From positions 1 through 36,881 of the forward strand of contig JAAZJE010000012.1 in NCBI GenBank assembly GCA_012800515.1: DNA of 36,881 nucleotides, in the 5' to 3' direction. This stretch comes from Clostridiaceae bacterium. Lineage in GTDB: Bacteria; Bacillota; Clostridia; Saccharofermentanales; Fastidiosipilaceae. The translations under genes and the position numbers were made by a program. Below, piece after piece: positions 14,799 through 28,992 of this stretch (position 1 is its first letter; the number at the start of each line of letters is the position of its first letter). The notes under the pieces are model-generated. The model searched no databases and was not told the origin of the DNA. It worked only from the letters and a program-made list of their open reading frames with translations.

Positions 14799-17700
14799 TT
14801 ATTGATAGTTTTTCGCCTGCTTAAGAATCTCCGCGCGGAAATCTTCTCCGCGCTCTTCAAATGATTTATATCGATTGTAGCTCGAGGCGGCTGGTGACAA
14901 TAATACTGTTCCACCGACCGGCGTTTCGGCAAAGGCCGCGCTGACCGCCGCCCTCATATCTTCCACGACAAATACGCGCGTTCCGGCAAAGTTTTTAGGA
15001 TCGGTCGCATTCAATCTCTCCCGCAACAAATCCGCCAAAACCCGCCCCGTATCCGGCAATAAAATCACCACCGGAACCGCCTGCTCAACAATGCAGTCGG
15101 CCAAGGCGCTCAAATCGAGACCGCGATCCATTCCGCCGGCGATCAATGTATGCACCGGCGCCAGCGTCTCCAGAGCCAAAATCGTCGCCGCGGGAATCGT
15201 CGCGATCGAATCGTTCACAAAATGACGCCCGGCGAACTCGCCACAATATTCGGTACGATGCGCCAGCCCTCTGAAAGCGGCAAACACCTCTTTCGCTCGC
15301 CAAACCGGCAGTCCCGCAAACTGCGCCACCGCCCAGGCGAGAGCCATATCAGTGGCATGGTGAACACCGCGCAGATGCGAACCCAAATTGTCGAGCCGCA
15401 ATTCGGATTCCCTCGGCAGGATCATCGAGAAAACAGTAGTGCTGTCTGCAGAAGTTGTGATTCTGCCCAGCGGATCGCCGGTTGTGCGCCAAACCAGGTG
15501 CAGAGCATCGCCCGCCTGCGGCTTGTTGACCCAGATCGTCGCCAGCGGCTCCTTGCCCTGCCACCCGAGCGCCGCCAAATTCCCCGGTCGGATACCCGCC
15601 GTCAACACAACCGCCGAGTGACTAACGAGAATTACCTCGCCTTGAACCAGCTTTGCCGCCCGTTGCGCCAACTCCGCATTGTCCAAATCGATAATCGCCA
15701 CATCGGACGCGCCTTGATAACGCAATAAATTCAGCTTGGCGTCGACATATGCCTCATAGCTCACATAGTGATCGAGATGCTCCGGATAGAGGTTCGTCAA
15801 AACGGCAATCCACGGAACGTTGCGCATGAACTGCAGCTGATGCGAAGACAGCTCCAGCGCCACCGCATCTTCCGCCTCCAAATTTGTCCAGTCCTCAAAA
15901 ACCGGCACTCCGATATTACCCAGCAGATAGCTCGGTTCCCGTTGCGCCGCCAACACTCCGTGAATCAGCGCCGTCGTCGTCGACTTCCCCTTTGTGCCGC
16001 TCACTCCGACCGTCAGACCCGGAGCAGCCTGCATGAACAAATCCGTCTGGCAGGTAATCGCGCAATTCGGCCAGCGCCGCATCCGCCCGTTCGGCAGCAG
16101 ATCGCCACTCCAGGGCAAAAGCGCGATGCCCGGCGATTTCACAACAATATCCGCCTCATCCAAAGCCGAACAATAGTCTTCGCCGCTGAAAAACACGACC
16201 CGTCCGACCGCGTGTTCCGCCTGTAAATTGTAATATTCGCAAATCCCGTCCTCATCCTGCGACGCCTTATCCGCCAACAGCAGGCGCTCCCAGCCGATAT
16301 CGTGGCGCCATTTACTAAGAATGTTCAGGCTGCTCTTTCCTTCGCAACCCAGCCCGAGCAGAGCCACGGATTTGCCGTAAAAATGCTCACGCAAAACTCG
16401 TAACCACCCCGGCAGTTCGGAGGTCACGGCGGCCAGGTCCAGCGGCGGAAACAGACTCGAAAGCGCGGGGAAATACTTCGCCGGTACCCGGTGCTGGTGC
16501 GCCGTATACAATAACTCCCGATATTGCTCTTCAACGGTACGCTCCGACAATTCGGCCGGCAATTCACCGCTGACCTGCCATTGCACGAACTGACGCAATA
16601 AAAGCGGCAGAGTATCGTACGAACGCCCGTACTCGGCGCGGGTCAGTTCCAAAGCCAAGTAGCACTCGACGCGCGTTCCTACACACTCGAACGGCTTGCT
16701 CGGCGTGACTCCGAGCAACTCGGCCAGAATCGGCACCATATCCTCCGCTTCGATCAAATCACGCCCGATCATCGCGGCAACCTTTTCGCGCCCCAACCAC
16801 GGCAACATAATCAAGCTGACAAATAAGCATTTGGCGCAATGACCGCACCAAATATTATCCTTACTGCCGCGATTACAGGAACGGAAAATATGGTGATAAT
16901 CCGTGAGTTCGGCAAAGACGCGCGCAATCGCCAGCTCCGAATAGGGTCGTAGCAGACTGAAGTAGCGCACTTCCCGCTCGAACAGCTGGTTCCGCGCAAA
17001 GTATTCCGCCACCGCCTGCTCAAATTCCAAAGTTTTTGAATACTGATGATTAATCGGGCGTCCGTCGGCGGCCGGCAGATCGACCGTCGGCTCATTCGCG
17101 GAGGCCTCATTCGACAAAGCGATATCGCGCAAACCGTAGAGGTAGGCGACCATCCGCGCCGTCAGCGCCACCAGCGCCGAGAACGGCGTATGCCCGTTCA
17201 GGAAGCCGAGCTCATTCAAGCGCAACAGGCGCTGATCCAGGCTGCGCCGCACGAATATGCACTCCTCCGGCGCCAAGCCCGCCGCCGCGACCGCTTCCAA
17301 CGTGGCCGGCTGCGGATTGATGGCAAAGGGCACGATCTCCTTATCCGTGCGCCGCGCGACCGCCAGCGAAACCAGGGAATCCTTGCCGCCGCCGAGCGGC
17401 AACAAAAGTCGATTCCGCACTGTTGCGGCGTCTCGCGCCACACCGATGTCCGGCTCCGCAGTGGCATCGCCAGCTTCACCAACGCTCCGCGTCACAGCGA
17501 CATCCGCCGCCGCGAACTCCTCCGCCAAGGCCACCGGCTCCATAAAGCTCAAACCGTAAACCGGGATATTATTGAGATAAAAGTACTCGCCCATACCGTC
17601 ACGATAGAGGTTGAGCCAAAAATCGAGTTCCTCCCCGACCGCGGGAATATTGAGCGGCAGATGCACCCTCGGCGAAGCTGTCGCTTTCCAGTAACTGATC

Positions 17701-17966
17701 AGTTCCACCATCCCGACGGCAACGGCTAATTCGTAAATCGCCGTCTGCTCCTCCGGCTCGGAATCCGGGCCGAAGCACATTCCGGCCCGCGGCAGGCGCA
17801 GGGTCGGACGGAACTCCGTCAAGCCCGGCACAACGAAATGCCACTCCAGAATCAGCTCCTGTTCCGTCCAGTTTAAATTTGTGGCGCGGAAGACAAAATC
17901 CGGATAAGCCGCACGCAAAGCGTCCCAGCTCATCTCCTGATTTTCAGGCACTCTGATCGTCTCCAT
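14799..17966 (-). CDS. Fusion protein: N-terminal MurL-like UDP-MurNAc-L-Ala-L-Glu epimerase domain plus C-terminal MurD ligase domain
   Basis: 1055 aa. Residues ~1-520: PP-loop-like LLLPLGGGKDSLVSLAVA and Cys cluster SCNRGSKDNIWCGHCAKC. Residues ~528-1055: MurD-like KSVALLGLGCEGKSS, VGVSGTKGKSTTTALIHG, ALELSSHQLQ, LTNLYPEHLDHY, LAHRTEYCGEFAGRHFVNDSIATIPAAT, LSPAASSYNRYKSFEERGEDF. Confidence 0.8.
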   Translation of the reverse strand: METIRVPENQEMSWDALRAAYPDFVFRATNLNWTEQELILEWHFVVPGLTEFRPTLRLPRAGMCFGPDSEPEEQTAIYELAVAVGMVELISYWKATASPRVHLPLNIPAVGEELDFWLNLYRDGMGEYFYLNNIPVYGLSFMEPVALAEEFAAADVAVTRSVGEAGDATAEPDIGVARDAATVRNRLLLPLGGGKDSLVSLAVARRTDKEIVPFAINPQPATLEAVAAAGLAPEECIFVRRSLDQRLLRLNELGFLNGHTPFSALVALTARMVAYLYGLRDIALSNEASANEPTVDLPAADGRPINHQYSKTLEFEQAVAEYFARNQLFEREVRYFSLLRPYSELAIARVFAELTDYHHIFRSCNRGSKDNIWCGHCAKCLFVSLIMLPWLGREKVAAMIGRDLIEAEDMVPILAELLGVTPSKPFECVGTRVECYLALELTRAEYGRSYDTLPLLLRQFVQWQVSGELPAELSERTVEEQYRELLYTAHQHRVPAKYFPALSSLFPPLDLAAVTSELPGWLRVLREHFYGKSVALLGLGCEGKSSLNILSKWRHDIGWERLLLADKASQDEDGICEYYNLQAEHAVGRVVFFSGEDYCSALDEADIVVKSPGIALLPWSGDLLPNGRMRRWPNCAITCQTDLFMQAAPGLTVGVSGTKGKSTTTALIHGVLAAQREPSYLLGNIGVPVFEDWTNLEAEDAVALELSSHQLQFMRNVPWIAVLTNLYPEHLDHYVSYEAYVDAKLNLLRYQGASDVAIIDLDNAELAQRAAKLVQGEVILVSHSAVVLTAGIRPGNLAALGWQGKEPLATIWVNKPQAGDALHLVWRTTGDPLGRITTSADSTTVFSMILPRESELRLDNLGSHLRGVHHATDMALAWAVAQFAGLPVWRAKEVFAAFRGLAHRTEYCGEFAGRHFVNDSIATIPAATILALETLAPVHTLIAGGMDRGLDLSALADCIVEQAVPVVILLPDTGRVLADLLRERLNATDPKNFAGTRVFVVEDMRAAVSAAFAETPVGGTVLLSPAASSYNRYKSFEERGEDFRAEILKQAKNYQ

Positions 17967-21536: not shown

Positions 21537-23084
21537 TTAATGCGGCAATGTTTTCCGACGGTACAAACGATATACAAAGACCTGCTTTTCATACGGATGC
21601 GGAATAGCCTCGACCAGATCATAGGGCAACCCCGGATAGAGCGGCTCCAATTCCTGGTTATTCGTGATAATGTAGTCGACTTTACCCGCCATGATCGTCT
21701 CACGCCAGATCCGAACCCGCTCCGGGACGATTGTATTTGTACCAATGAAGTATTTATCGTCGGGTACAATCTCGGCAACATTTTGGAAGCCGTGATCCAT
21801 TGTGGCATGAATCATTAGGGTCGGATCGGGGGTTTGGCGGATGATTTTACGGAACTTATATTGGGGCAGATCTTCGCGCCCATAGAGGAGCAGGTAAGAG
21901 TGGCGACCGGATGCTAACGAGAAAGGGATTAGGAACGCCAGAATCAGGATAGTGGCGGCCAGGCTTTTTTTACGGTTGATACCGGCTCGAACGGAGTCCG
22001 GAACCCACCGGAGCAGACTAATGATGCCCAGGATAGATAGGATGACCAAGGGAAGAAAGTAATAGTTGAAAACGAAGGGTAGGGCAATCAGAATGCCCAG
22101 CATACTGCCATAGATACAGCGAACGGCCAGGCGTAACCTGCGTTGGGGATTTTTACGCGCCCATCCCAAGCGCAGAAAGCCGACCAAAGCCATACCGGTG
22201 ATCAGAGGATTGCTACCGAGGCCAAAAAGAAAACGGCCGATGTGGAAGATAATGCCCCGGTTAAAGTGTTGCGCCAGTTGTTCGTTAAACTGATTATGCG
22301 TTTGGGCGTAAGTGACGGCGTTGGAACGGATATAAACGGCGAACATGTCCGCAAAGGAGTGGGTTAAACCACAATAAAACAGGAGAGGCAACGAACCTAA
22401 AATAATACCCAGTACCCAGAGTGCAACCTTCCGGAACAGACCTTTCCAATCTCTCGAACAGACAGAAACAATCAAAATAGCTAGACAGAAGCCGATATGA
22501 AAACTCAGGAGGGTGTATTTTGTCCAAAAAATCACGGCGGTCGCTATGCCTTGAAAAATCCAGGCTCCGGCCGGCAGGTCGGCGTCTTCGTTTCTTGACC
22601 ATTGAAGTAGCTTATATAGCGAATAGGCCAGGAAAGGCAACATTAATTCTTCCGCGCTGTCGCCGTGAGCGAAAGCCGGCGAGAAGGTGGTTATGAAAGC
22701 TAGGATGGCCAGGGTCGGCGGAATAAGTCCGGAAGGCAGATAGAGTGCCATCGATTTGTAGGCAAAGAAGAGAAAAAAGGTCAGTGCCAGAGTTTCCAGG
22801 AGATAAACACCGAAAAAACCGGGATAGGAAATCAAGGTGGCGGGAATATGGAGCAGATAGTGGTAAAGGCCTTTTTGCTCAAAAATGTCCGCGTAGAGGA
22901 CTTTACCTTTCAGCATCATCCGGGCAACCGTAATGTAGGCGTTGGCATCACCCCAATCATTGATCGGATAGATGAAGGACGATTTTGAGCCGACGGCAAC
23001 GAAGGCGACGGCAATAAAAAAACAAGTCAGGATAATTTTAAGCGAGTTGGATTGTTTGGCGGTTGACAGGTTGATTTTAGACAT
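21537..23084 (-). CDS. Polytopic membrane protein, GT-C/PMT-type glycosyltransferase-like
   Basis: 515 aa, many TM helices; N-terminal DWGDANAYITVARMMLKGKVLYADIFEQKGLYHYL resembles the GT39/PMT first-loop motif. Confidence 0.7.
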   Translation of the reverse strand: MSKINLSTAKQSNSLKIILTCFFIAVAFVAVGSKSSFIYPINDWGDANAYITVARMMLKGKVLYADIFEQKGLYHYLLHIPATLISYPGFFGVYLLETLALTFFLFFAYKSMALYLPSGLIPPTLAILAFITTFSPAFAHGDSAEELMLPFLAYSLYKLLQWSRNEDADLPAGAWIFQGIATAVIFWTKYTLLSFHIGFCLAILIVSVCSRDWKGLFRKVALWVLGIILGSLPLLFYCGLTHSFADMFAVYIRSNAVTYAQTHNQFNEQLAQHFNRGIIFHIGRFLFGLGSNPLITGMALVGFLRLGWARKNPQRRLRLAVRCIYGSMLGILIALPFVFNYYFLPLVILSILGIISLLRWVPDSVRAGINRKKSLAATILILAFLIPFSLASGRHSYLLLYGREDLPQYKFRKIIRQTPDPTLMIHATMDHGFQNVAEIVPDDKYFIGTNTIVPERVRIWRETIMAGKVDYIITNNQELEPLYPGLPYDLVEAIPHPYEKQVFVYRLYRRKTLPH

Positions 23085-26818: not shown

Positions 26819-27859
26819 TTATCTGTTCCGCAGGCGCGCCGCAATCACCCGCGGATTTCCCGCGTAGTCGACATACTGCTTAACATCGCCGAGGCGGAAC
26901 CTTCCGTCCGGATCGGCCCACTCCTCAAACAGAGCCCGAATCGCCTCGCGCTGGTCATAGCCGTGCTCCAGGAGAATATAACCGCCGGGACGCAGATAGC
27001 GCGGCAAACCGGCCAAAATCCGGCGAATTATCGCCAAGCCGTCCGTACCTCCGTCGAGCGCCGCCAAAGGTTCGTGCTCCCTGACCTCGGCGTCGAGCCC
27101 GGCCAGATCCGCCGTCGGTATATATGGTGGATTGCCGAAGATCAGGTCAAAAGTTCCGTACACATCCGTGGGCGGATAGATATCCGTCTCGACCAAATTC
27201 ACCAGATGTTCGGCATAATGAGCCTCGACATTGCGCGCCGCCACACTCAGAGCGCGGGAGGAATTGTCCGTCGCCACAAGAGACTCAACGCGCGCTCCGG
27301 CCGTCCTGACCCGCTCCATCTGCAGAGCCAAAGCGAGACAGCCGCTACCGGTGCCGATCTCCAAAATGCGGGCGCCGTGATAAAACTCCGAACTCAATCC
27401 TTCCGTTAGCAACACATCCAAAATCCGTTCCAGTAGCACCTCGCTGTCGGAACGCGGAATCAGCACATCATCCGTACAGATAATCTCCAGACCCATGAAG
27501 GTGGTATAGCCGACAACGTAGGCCAAAGGACGTCCGTTAAGATAGGTCAGCGCCATTCTGCGAAAGAGATCCCGCGCGTGACGTAATTGAGCCGTATCGA
27601 TCTTGGCCTCGGAAGCGGCAAACATCAGCAGATTATCCTTTGCCTCGCGCAACAAGTCCGCGAATTTCTCCCGGCGTCTGACCGATAATTCCAGCGGCGT
27701 CGTTTTCAGCGCGGCCGCCAATAATTCGCATAATTTATCCCGCACCTCGTCATCGGATAGATTTCCGTCTCTCCAAGCGGAACGGCGCTTCTTCAGCCAG
27801 ATTAGACTGCCATTCAAAAGATCAGCTAAGCTCCGGTCAAACAGCCCGCTCATCGCCAC
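26819..27859 (-). CDS. prmC: Release factor glutamine methyltransferase
   Basis: ILEIGTGSGCLALAL, LIFGNPPYIP catalytic NPPY, placed directly downstream of the DUF1385 gene and upstream of prfA. Confidence 0.94.
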   Translation of the reverse strand: MAMSGLFDRSLADLLNGSLIWLKKRRSAWRDGNLSDDEVRDKLCELLAAALKTTPLELSVRRREKFADLLREAKDNLLMFAASEAKIDTAQLRHARDLFRRMALTYLNGRPLAYVVGYTTFMGLEIICTDDVLIPRSDSEVLLERILDVLLTEGLSSEFYHGARILEIGTGSGCLALALQMERVRTAGARVESLVATDNSSRALSVAARNVEAHYAEHLVNLVETDIYPPTDVYGTFDLIFGNPPYIPTADLAGLDAEVREHEPLAALDGGTDGLAIIRRILAGLPRYLRPGGYILLEHGYDQREAIRALFEEWADPDGRFRLGDVKQYVDYAGNPRVIAARLRNR

Positions 27860-28992
27860 AAGTCCGCATCAGGATCATCCGGCAGAACCGCCTGTAAAGC
27901 CGTAACCGCCACCTCTAACATCTCCCGATCCGGTTCGCGCGTCGTCAGTCGCTGCGTCAACAGACCGGGGGCGGCAAAAATTCGGGCCGGCAATGTCGTA
28001 CTGTGCTTACCCACCCACAACAACAGCTCATAAGAAAGACCGGCTATCAGCGGCAGAAGCAAGAGGCGTATCAACAGGTTCAGCCAGATACCGTACCAGC
28101 CAACCACGGCAAAAACCAATACGCTGATTATAATCAACTGAATCAGGAACGAGGTTCCGCAACGCGGGTGGAAGCGGCTGTAAGTAGCAGCGGCCTCTGC
28201 GGTCATTTCATCGCCGTGTTCGTAACAGGCGATCGCTTTATGCTCTGCGCCGTGATACATCCAGATCCGCCGCAGATCCGGCAGGAGCGAGGTCAGACCC
28301 AGATAACTCAGTAATATGACGATCCTAATCAGGCCTTCGAATAAATTATAAAAAAAACTCATTCCCCAGGCCTGCTGAGCGGAACGCGGACCCAAAATCA
28401 GTCCCGCGACTAAATTCGGCAATAAGATGAACAGCCCGACCGCGATCGTCATACTCAGCGCCACGGTCAGACCAAGTTGCAACGAACTCATCGTCGAGGA
28501 CTTGGCCGACTTTTCCGTTGATTCTTTTACCAAGCCGGCGGTTTCAATCTCCGCCGCTTCGACCTCGTTAGTCTCGACATCCGCAGGCTCAACCTCAGTC
28601 TCGGGGGTTTTGACCTCCACAGCTTCGGAAACAGCACTGTCGACGTCCTCGGTATTTTTCTCGGCTTCCTTCACCTGATCCGTCTGATCCGCCTCGAAAT
28701 ACTCGGCCGACTTGAAAATTGCCTTCATACCCATTTTCAGCTGACGGAACAGACGCACACTGCCGCGCACAACCGGCAATCTCGCCCAGATATCGTCGGT
28801 TTTCGGCAGGGGCAGTGCTTCCGTTTCGATGCGGCCGTCGGCCCGTCGACAGCACATCGCAACCCGTTCCGGCCCCATCATCAGGAGACCCTCGATCAGA
28901 GCCTGGCCGCCTATTTTGGTGCGCCGCACCGGACGCCCCGAATTCAGTTCCGATGTATATGTCTTCGCTTTTTTCGTCTTATCGCCGTTCAT
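27850..28992 (-). CDS. DUF1385 family membrane protein (YqhQ-like)
   Basis: KIGGQALIEGLLMMGPERVAMCCRR; MYHGAEHKAIACYEHGDEMT; SRFHPRCGTSFLI. Carries an acidic Val/Glu/Thr-rich insertion. Confidence 0.93.
   Translation of the reverse strand: MNGDKTKKAKTYTSELNSGRPVRRTKIGGQALIEGLLMMGPERVAMCCRRADGRIETEALPLPKTDDIWARLPVVRGSVRLFRQLKMGMKAIFKSAEYFEADQTDQVKEAEKNTEDVDSAVSEAVEVKTPETEVEPADVETNEVEAAEIETAGLVKESTEKSAKSSTMSSLQLGLTVALSMTIAVGLFILLPNLVAGLILGPRSAQQAWGMSFFYNLFEGLIRIVILLSYLGLTSLLPDLRRIWMYHGAEHKAIACYEHGDEMTAEAAATYSRFHPRCGTSFLIQLIIISVLVFAVVGWYGIWLNLLIRLLLLPLIAGLSYELLLWVGKHSTTLPARIFAAPGLLTQRLTTREPDREMLEVAVTALQAVLPDDPDADLWR

Follow-up and report, generated by a model that had tools for sequence, protein, structure and literature searches.

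Can the attachment of glutamate to a peptidoglycan precursor and the inversion of that glutamate to its D-form be carried out by one polypeptide? The question is raised by a gene in a stretch of 36,881 nucleotides (here called the window; contig JAAZJE010000012.1 of assembly GCA_012800515.1) from an uncultured Clostridiaceae bacterium of the family Fastidiosipilaceae. MurI, a racemase and drug target, is regarded as the near-universal supplier of D-glutamate (D-Glu) for peptidoglycan. Another route is known from the Xanthomonadales and their relatives, some Alphaproteobacteria and rare actinobacteria. In that route the ligase MurD2 attaches L-glutamate (L-Glu), which MurL then epimerises, as has been shown for separate proteins (PMC8788868, PMC5808125); the pair is XOO_1320/XOO_1319 (MurD2/MurL) in Xanthomonas oryzae, and the pathway also occurs in Micromonospora and Salinispora (Feng et al. 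2017, reviewed in PMC8788868). The gene in the window very probably encodes a bifunctional MurL-MurD2 enzyme, which would replace both MurI and canonical MurD.

The first-pass annotation had placed MurL and MurD in one polypeptide, and this was borne out by an open reading frame (ORF) of 1055 codons, with an ATG start and free of interruptions, that matches NCBIfam profiles for both proteins (Table 1). The C-terminal half is a MurD, as had been claimed, its full-length match to TIGR01087 (257 bits) being above the 212-bit cut-off. The N-terminal half matches the MurL profile NF041275 over profile positions 34-443 of 447 with a score of 200 bits (E 3.6e-59), which is below the 700-bit equivalog cut-off set for Xanthomonadales; among the homologues found here, none from Clostridia, Saccharibacteria or Alphaproteobacteria reached this cut-off, and two genomes of the gammaproteobacterial sweep exceeded it (MurL at 810-821 bits). 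Judged by sequence, the N-terminal half is thus MurL-like by homology and not an NF041275 equivalog; its membership is argued from full-length homology, invariant residues and context, the score being under the curated cut-off. Pfam recognised in the fusion only the middle and C-terminal domains of Mur ligases, plus a sub-threshold DUF6395.

Dozens of positions are invariant in an alignment of 37 MurLs (the window protein, two above-cut-off sequences of the Xanthomonadales type and 34 other homologues). The MurL half of the window protein is 27% identical to the two Xanthomonadales-type references and has in common with the MurLs the motifs GGGKDS, NGH, NHQ.SK, SCN...WC..C.KC and KPFECVG, most of which are invariant in 37/37. 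The GGG..S of the PP-loop occurs in all 37 and its K and D in 36; the four cysteines of CNRGSKDNIWCGHCAKC are invariant throughout, as are K424, C428, V429 and G430 of the KPFECVG motif. The comparison with MurL families that the first-pass annotation had suggested therefore gave an end-to-end match with shared invariant residues, and its positions for LLPLGGGKDS and the cysteine cluster were confirmed. The PP-loop is where it had been placed, but does not point to an alternative to MurL, since MurL itself appears, from structure prediction, to be a PP-loop enzyme. A PP-loop protein other than MurL was ruled out as the identity of this half, because all MurLs, including those of the Xanthomonadales type, share the motifs. 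The MurL of locus L151 has an altered PP-loop, GGGIGS.

The substrate of the ligase half is the next point to be decided. The substitution K319T lets Escherichia coli MurD accept L-Glu. The Lys319 position was ruled out as a marker for L-Glu use, as Ile is found there among the partners of MurL and also among the order's canonical MurDs. In X. oryzae MurD2, specificity is set by Glu197 and Arg358, and reverting both changes the substrate from L-Glu to D-Glu (PMC8788868). The corresponding residues of the window protein, Glu729 and Arg948, are those predicted for L-Glu (MurD2) and not those for D-Glu, in keeping with the MurD variant that had been suspected. The Glu+Arg pair is present in 35 of 37 MurDs adjacent to MurL, in 0 of 70 MurDs from MurL-free loci and in 0 of 14 canonical MurDs from the order's sister families, all 14 of which have Asn+Lys instead. 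Pro433 and Phe435 of X. oryzae MurD2 are replaced by Ser1028 and Tyr1030 in the window protein; they are not defining, because mutating them leaves the stereospecificity of MurD2 unchanged (PMC8788868). Like canonical MurD (TIGR01087; E. coli), the ligase half retains the catalytic residues of Mur ligases (the P-loop, the position of the carbamylated Lys, His183 and Arg302); unlike it, this half has Glu729/Arg948 in place of Asp or Asn/Lys, has an insertion and is fused to MurL. The insertion (about 75 residues, 782-860; window 15387-15623 (-)) has very low model confidence and is missing from the aligned stand-alone MurDs.

When MurDs are placed in a tree, the partners of MurL from several phyla group together and stand apart from the canonical enzymes of the window's order, which implies that the family holds a murL-murD2 cassette and not an altered version of the MurD native to its order. 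Strict monophyly of the MurL partners fails through one alphaproteobacterial MurD (L083, 4145-5284), which groups with MurD2 and in whose 1.1-Mb genome no MurL was found. Two MurDs adjacent to MurL, in L162 (G338) and L151, are without the full pair (Asp+Arg; Ala+Cys) and are possibly divergent or decaying variants. Canonical MurDs from the window's order and several other genomes of the phylum (L023-L042, L177-L185) carry Asn, Ile and Lys at the positions of E. coli Asp182, Lys319 and Lys348, and apparently form a second subtype of canonical MurD.

It had been predicted that such an organism would not need the usual MurI, and the distribution of the racemase is consistent with this: glutamate racemase (TIGR00067) was over its cut-off in none of the 12 family genomes and in 25 of the 26 sister-family genomes of the order. 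MurL is present in 11/12 family genomes versus 0/26 from sister families. The twelfth family genome (G005, 84% complete) has neither MurL nor a clear MurD, and the MurL/MurD region is probably absent from its assembly. D-amino-acid transaminase (TIGR01121) was never over cut-off in the family, and had no match at all in G002, G006 and G009. Two genomes assembled as one contig each (G002 and G006, 97-99% complete) have MurL and MurD, with no murI and no D-amino-acid transaminase match. There was also no second MurD over cut-off in the window's own genome (G000), so that, of the genes for which a search had been proposed (murI, dat and a separate murD), none was found over cut-off in this genome. 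Likewise, murI was over cut-off in none of 23 further MurL-bearing genomes from Clostridia, Saccharibacteria and Alphaproteobacteria. Four metagenome-assembled genomes of Saccharibacteria (Patescibacteria) of 0.7-0.9 Mb (L044, L048, L049, L050) have tandem murL-murD2 with Glu+Arg and no murI over cut-off; their gene content indicates that the MurL route exists in bacteria of the Candidate Phyla Radiation.

A fused ORF could also arise if an error of assembly or base-calling had merged two neighbouring genes: in several unfused relatives murL and murD touch or overlap by a few bases, and one lost stop codon would suffice. This explanation has, however, already been refuted in practice. A second genome of the same genus (G001, whose contig coincides with the published record 'Clostridiaceae bacterium AS21ysBPME_159', L043) has the same fusion with 93% identity. 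Between the two orthologues the 31-residue junction shows purifying selection on its coding (0.015 nonsynonymous substitutions per site, dN, against 0.425 synonymous, dS), and no ribosome-binding site is recognisable at any internal start codon within it. Four further family genomes have fused ORFs of 1019-1036 residues, in G006 on a single 1.8-Mb contig (99% completeness), bringing the total to six genomes in four genera.

Elsewhere in the family the genes are separate, with murL directly upstream of murD and adjacent to it or overlapping it (G002, G003, G009 and G010), or the pair is present on broken contigs (G004). Outside the family, murL and murD are adjacent separate genes in the Clostridia (288 genomes sampled at class level, 13 of them MurL-positive), Saccharibacteria, Alphaproteobacteria and Gammaproteobacteria sampled. 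The whole fusion, searched against the phylum, retrieved almost exclusively MurD halves and no additional fusion. In a tree of concatenated MurL and MurD, a deep branch divides clostridial and saccharibacterial from proteobacterial sequences, and the window's family forms one clade (100/98). The six fusions require two changes on this tree, either a fusion plus a split or a pair of fusions; a single grouping of all six was not rejected (approximately unbiased test, p 0.077).

What kind of enzyme is MurL? The MurL half, as modelled by AlphaFold2 (predicted local distance difference test score, pLDDT, 81.8; predicted template modelling score, pTM, 0.84), has QatC as its best match among PDB structures (E 8.4e-6, match probability 1.00, template modelling (TM) scores 0.36/0.43), followed by TtuA, QueC, carbapenam synthetase, ThiI, argininosuccinate synthase, MnmA and Cap9; nearly all top-ranked matches are PP-loop ATP pyrophosphatases. 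The match to QueC (3bl5) has probability 1.00 and a TM score of 0.63 normalised to QueC length. The modest TM scores overall reflect large additional regions in MurL, and they indicate a shared core fold, not identity. The MurL profile, compared with PDB sequences, matched the SGGKDS loop of TtuA (E 6e-4); no solved MurL structure was found by PDB sequence searches, and none of 14 MurLs matched the QueC family PF06508 at E<=1. The signature of QueC is C(x)8CxxCxxC together with SGGxDS (PMC13329287, in the text of which MurL is unmentioned). The corresponding spacing in MurL is C(x)9CxxCxxC, and CNRGSKDNIWCGHCAKC resembles CYNGFKGDGCGHCAAC of E. coli QueC. MurL would share with QueC, QatC and Cap9 a predicted PP-loop ATP-pyrophosphatase core, a loop resembling SGGxDS, a cysteine site spaced C(x)8-9CxxCxxC and a putative logic of carboxylate activation; it is unlike them in having no PF06508 match, large extra N- and C-terminal parts and another reaction.

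MurL has been described as being without known domains; it needs ATP and Mg, converts one ATP to AMP per epimerisation, releasing the AMP, and works from L to D only (PMC8788868, PMC5808125). Adenylation by MurL was proposed earlier (PMC8788868), and the predicted PP-loop fold is new support for that proposal, as it fits the ATP-to-AMP chemistry. QueC converts a carboxylate in an ATP-driven reaction, by activation and then ammonia addition. Since QueC acts on a carboxylate with ATP, the same logic fits MurL: the MurL half would adenylate the alpha-carboxylate of the newly ligated L-Glu (ATP to AMP and pyrophosphate), which would acidify the C-alpha proton; C-alpha would be inverted, and the adenylate would then be hydrolysed. 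Candidates for the base and acid are the invariant Cys428, His259, His307, Glu287 and Lys311. The fusion protein is predicted to have both activities, with attachment of L-Glu followed by epimerisation, and fusion may help the L-Glu intermediate to reach the epimerase from the ligase; direct hand-over would be an attractive reason for the fusion. The full picture, in which MurL is a repurposed enzyme of the QueC class with a zinc site that epimerises one way by adenylating the alpha-carboxylate, with direct hand-over in the fusion and a whole clostridial family making its D-Glu peptidoglycan without free D-Glu, is put forward tentatively, as possible rather than probable in all its parts.

Several observations, besides the MurL score under the curated cut-off, weigh against a bifunctional enzyme as proposed here. 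In about half of the family the genes are unfused, so the pathway does not depend on fusion, and channelling is unsupported, because the full-length model (pLDDT 75, pTM 0.60) leaves the relative placement of the two active sites unfixed. The window's genome (1.38 Mb, 145 contigs) is 75% complete, and the absence of murI therefore rests on its relatives. It also has weak class-IV aminotransferase matches (27 bits), and G009 has the only racemase-like match of the family (24 bits, to a 246-residue aspartate-racemase-like protein); either could in principle make some D-Glu. Such proteins would suit a reading in which the ligase half takes D-Glu from an unrecognised racemase or transaminase, MurL being vestigial or accessory. 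This is highly improbable: G002 and G006 have MurL and MurD with no murI or D-amino-acid transaminase match, and comparison with the same-genus orthologue shows strong purifying selection on the MurL half (dN 0.033, dS 0.297). Only a shade less improbable is a different function for the N-terminal, MurL-like PP-loop enzyme, which might, e.g., amidate the alpha-carboxylate of Glu to give isoglutamine, its fused MurD partner being a D-Glu ligase. The QueC-like fold, the four-cysteine site and the low identity to Xanthomonadales-type MurL would be compatible with it; murI is, however, missing family-wide, the partner MurD has the L-Glu signature, the conserved residues are common to Xanthomonadales MurL, and a glutaminase domain to supply ammonia is neither fused nor adjacent within the window.

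The bifunctional MurL-MurD2 enzyme resembles the X. oryzae system in its two domains, its Glu/Arg signature and the absence of murI, and the order of its domains is that of the adjacent genes in the Xanthomonadales-type loci seen here. It differs in being one polypeptide instead of two proteins, and in the deep branch between clostridial/saccharibacterial and proteobacterial sequences. Fusions of other Mur enzymes are on record, e.g., MurB-MurC in Verrucomicrobium (PMC4803751), and NCBIfam also holds models for MurE-MurF and MurC-Ddl fusions. These likewise join consecutive steps of precursor synthesis in one chain; they combine ligases or a reductase, whereas the window protein couples a ligase to an epimerase that would act on the ligase's product. 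The first-pass annotation knew of no characterised fusion of this kind in a Gram-positive lineage, and the open-access literature (most subscription journals being uncovered) yielded no report of a MurL-MurD fusion, or of MurL in Clostridia or Saccharibacteria. The pathway itself is already known; within that literature, the fusion, and the pathway's occurrence in these two groups, appear to be new.

The fusion lies outside any cluster of division or cell-wall genes. Upstream is an M3 oligoendopeptidase, which adjoins the fusion in G006 too, and on the opposite side are a polysaccharide deacetylase and MgtE. Elsewhere in the window are a 515-residue ORF without Pfam or NCBIfam match (21537-23084 (-)) and a DUF1385 protein (27850-28992 (-)) beside genes for a PrmC-like methyltransferase, release factor 1 and Sua5.

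Table 1. Features of the fusion gene, in window coordinates.
Feature	Position	Strand	Remarks
MurL-MurD fusion gene	14799..17966	-	1055 residues; single intact ORF; MurL and MurD profile matches
MurL-like domain	16461..17819	-	residues 50-502; NF041275 match; predicted QueC-like PP-loop fold (AlphaFold2)
PP-loop LLPLGGGKDS	17376..17405	-	residues 188-197
Four-cysteine motif CNRGSKDNIWCGHCAKC	16827..16877	-	residues 364-380; predicted QueC-type zinc site
KPFECVG motif	16677..16697	-	residues 424-430; invariant Cys428, candidate active-site residue
Inter-domain linker	16368..16460	-	residues 503-533; translated in frame
MurD2-type ligase domain	14832..16367	-	residues 534-1045; TIGR01087 match
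Glu729	15780..15782	-	X. oryzae MurD2 Glu197; E. coli MurD Asp182
Arg948	15123..15125	-	X. oryzae MurD2 Arg358; E. coli MurD Lys348

The fusion offers a predicted bifunctional enzyme that is encoded by one gene and can be tested directly; the predicted QueC-like fold gives MurL a concrete catalytic hypothesis. The family-wide replacement of MurI in Clostridia, together with the gene pair in Saccharibacteria, would make this alternative route to the D-Glu of peptidoglycan wider than the proteobacterial and actinobacterial genera on record.
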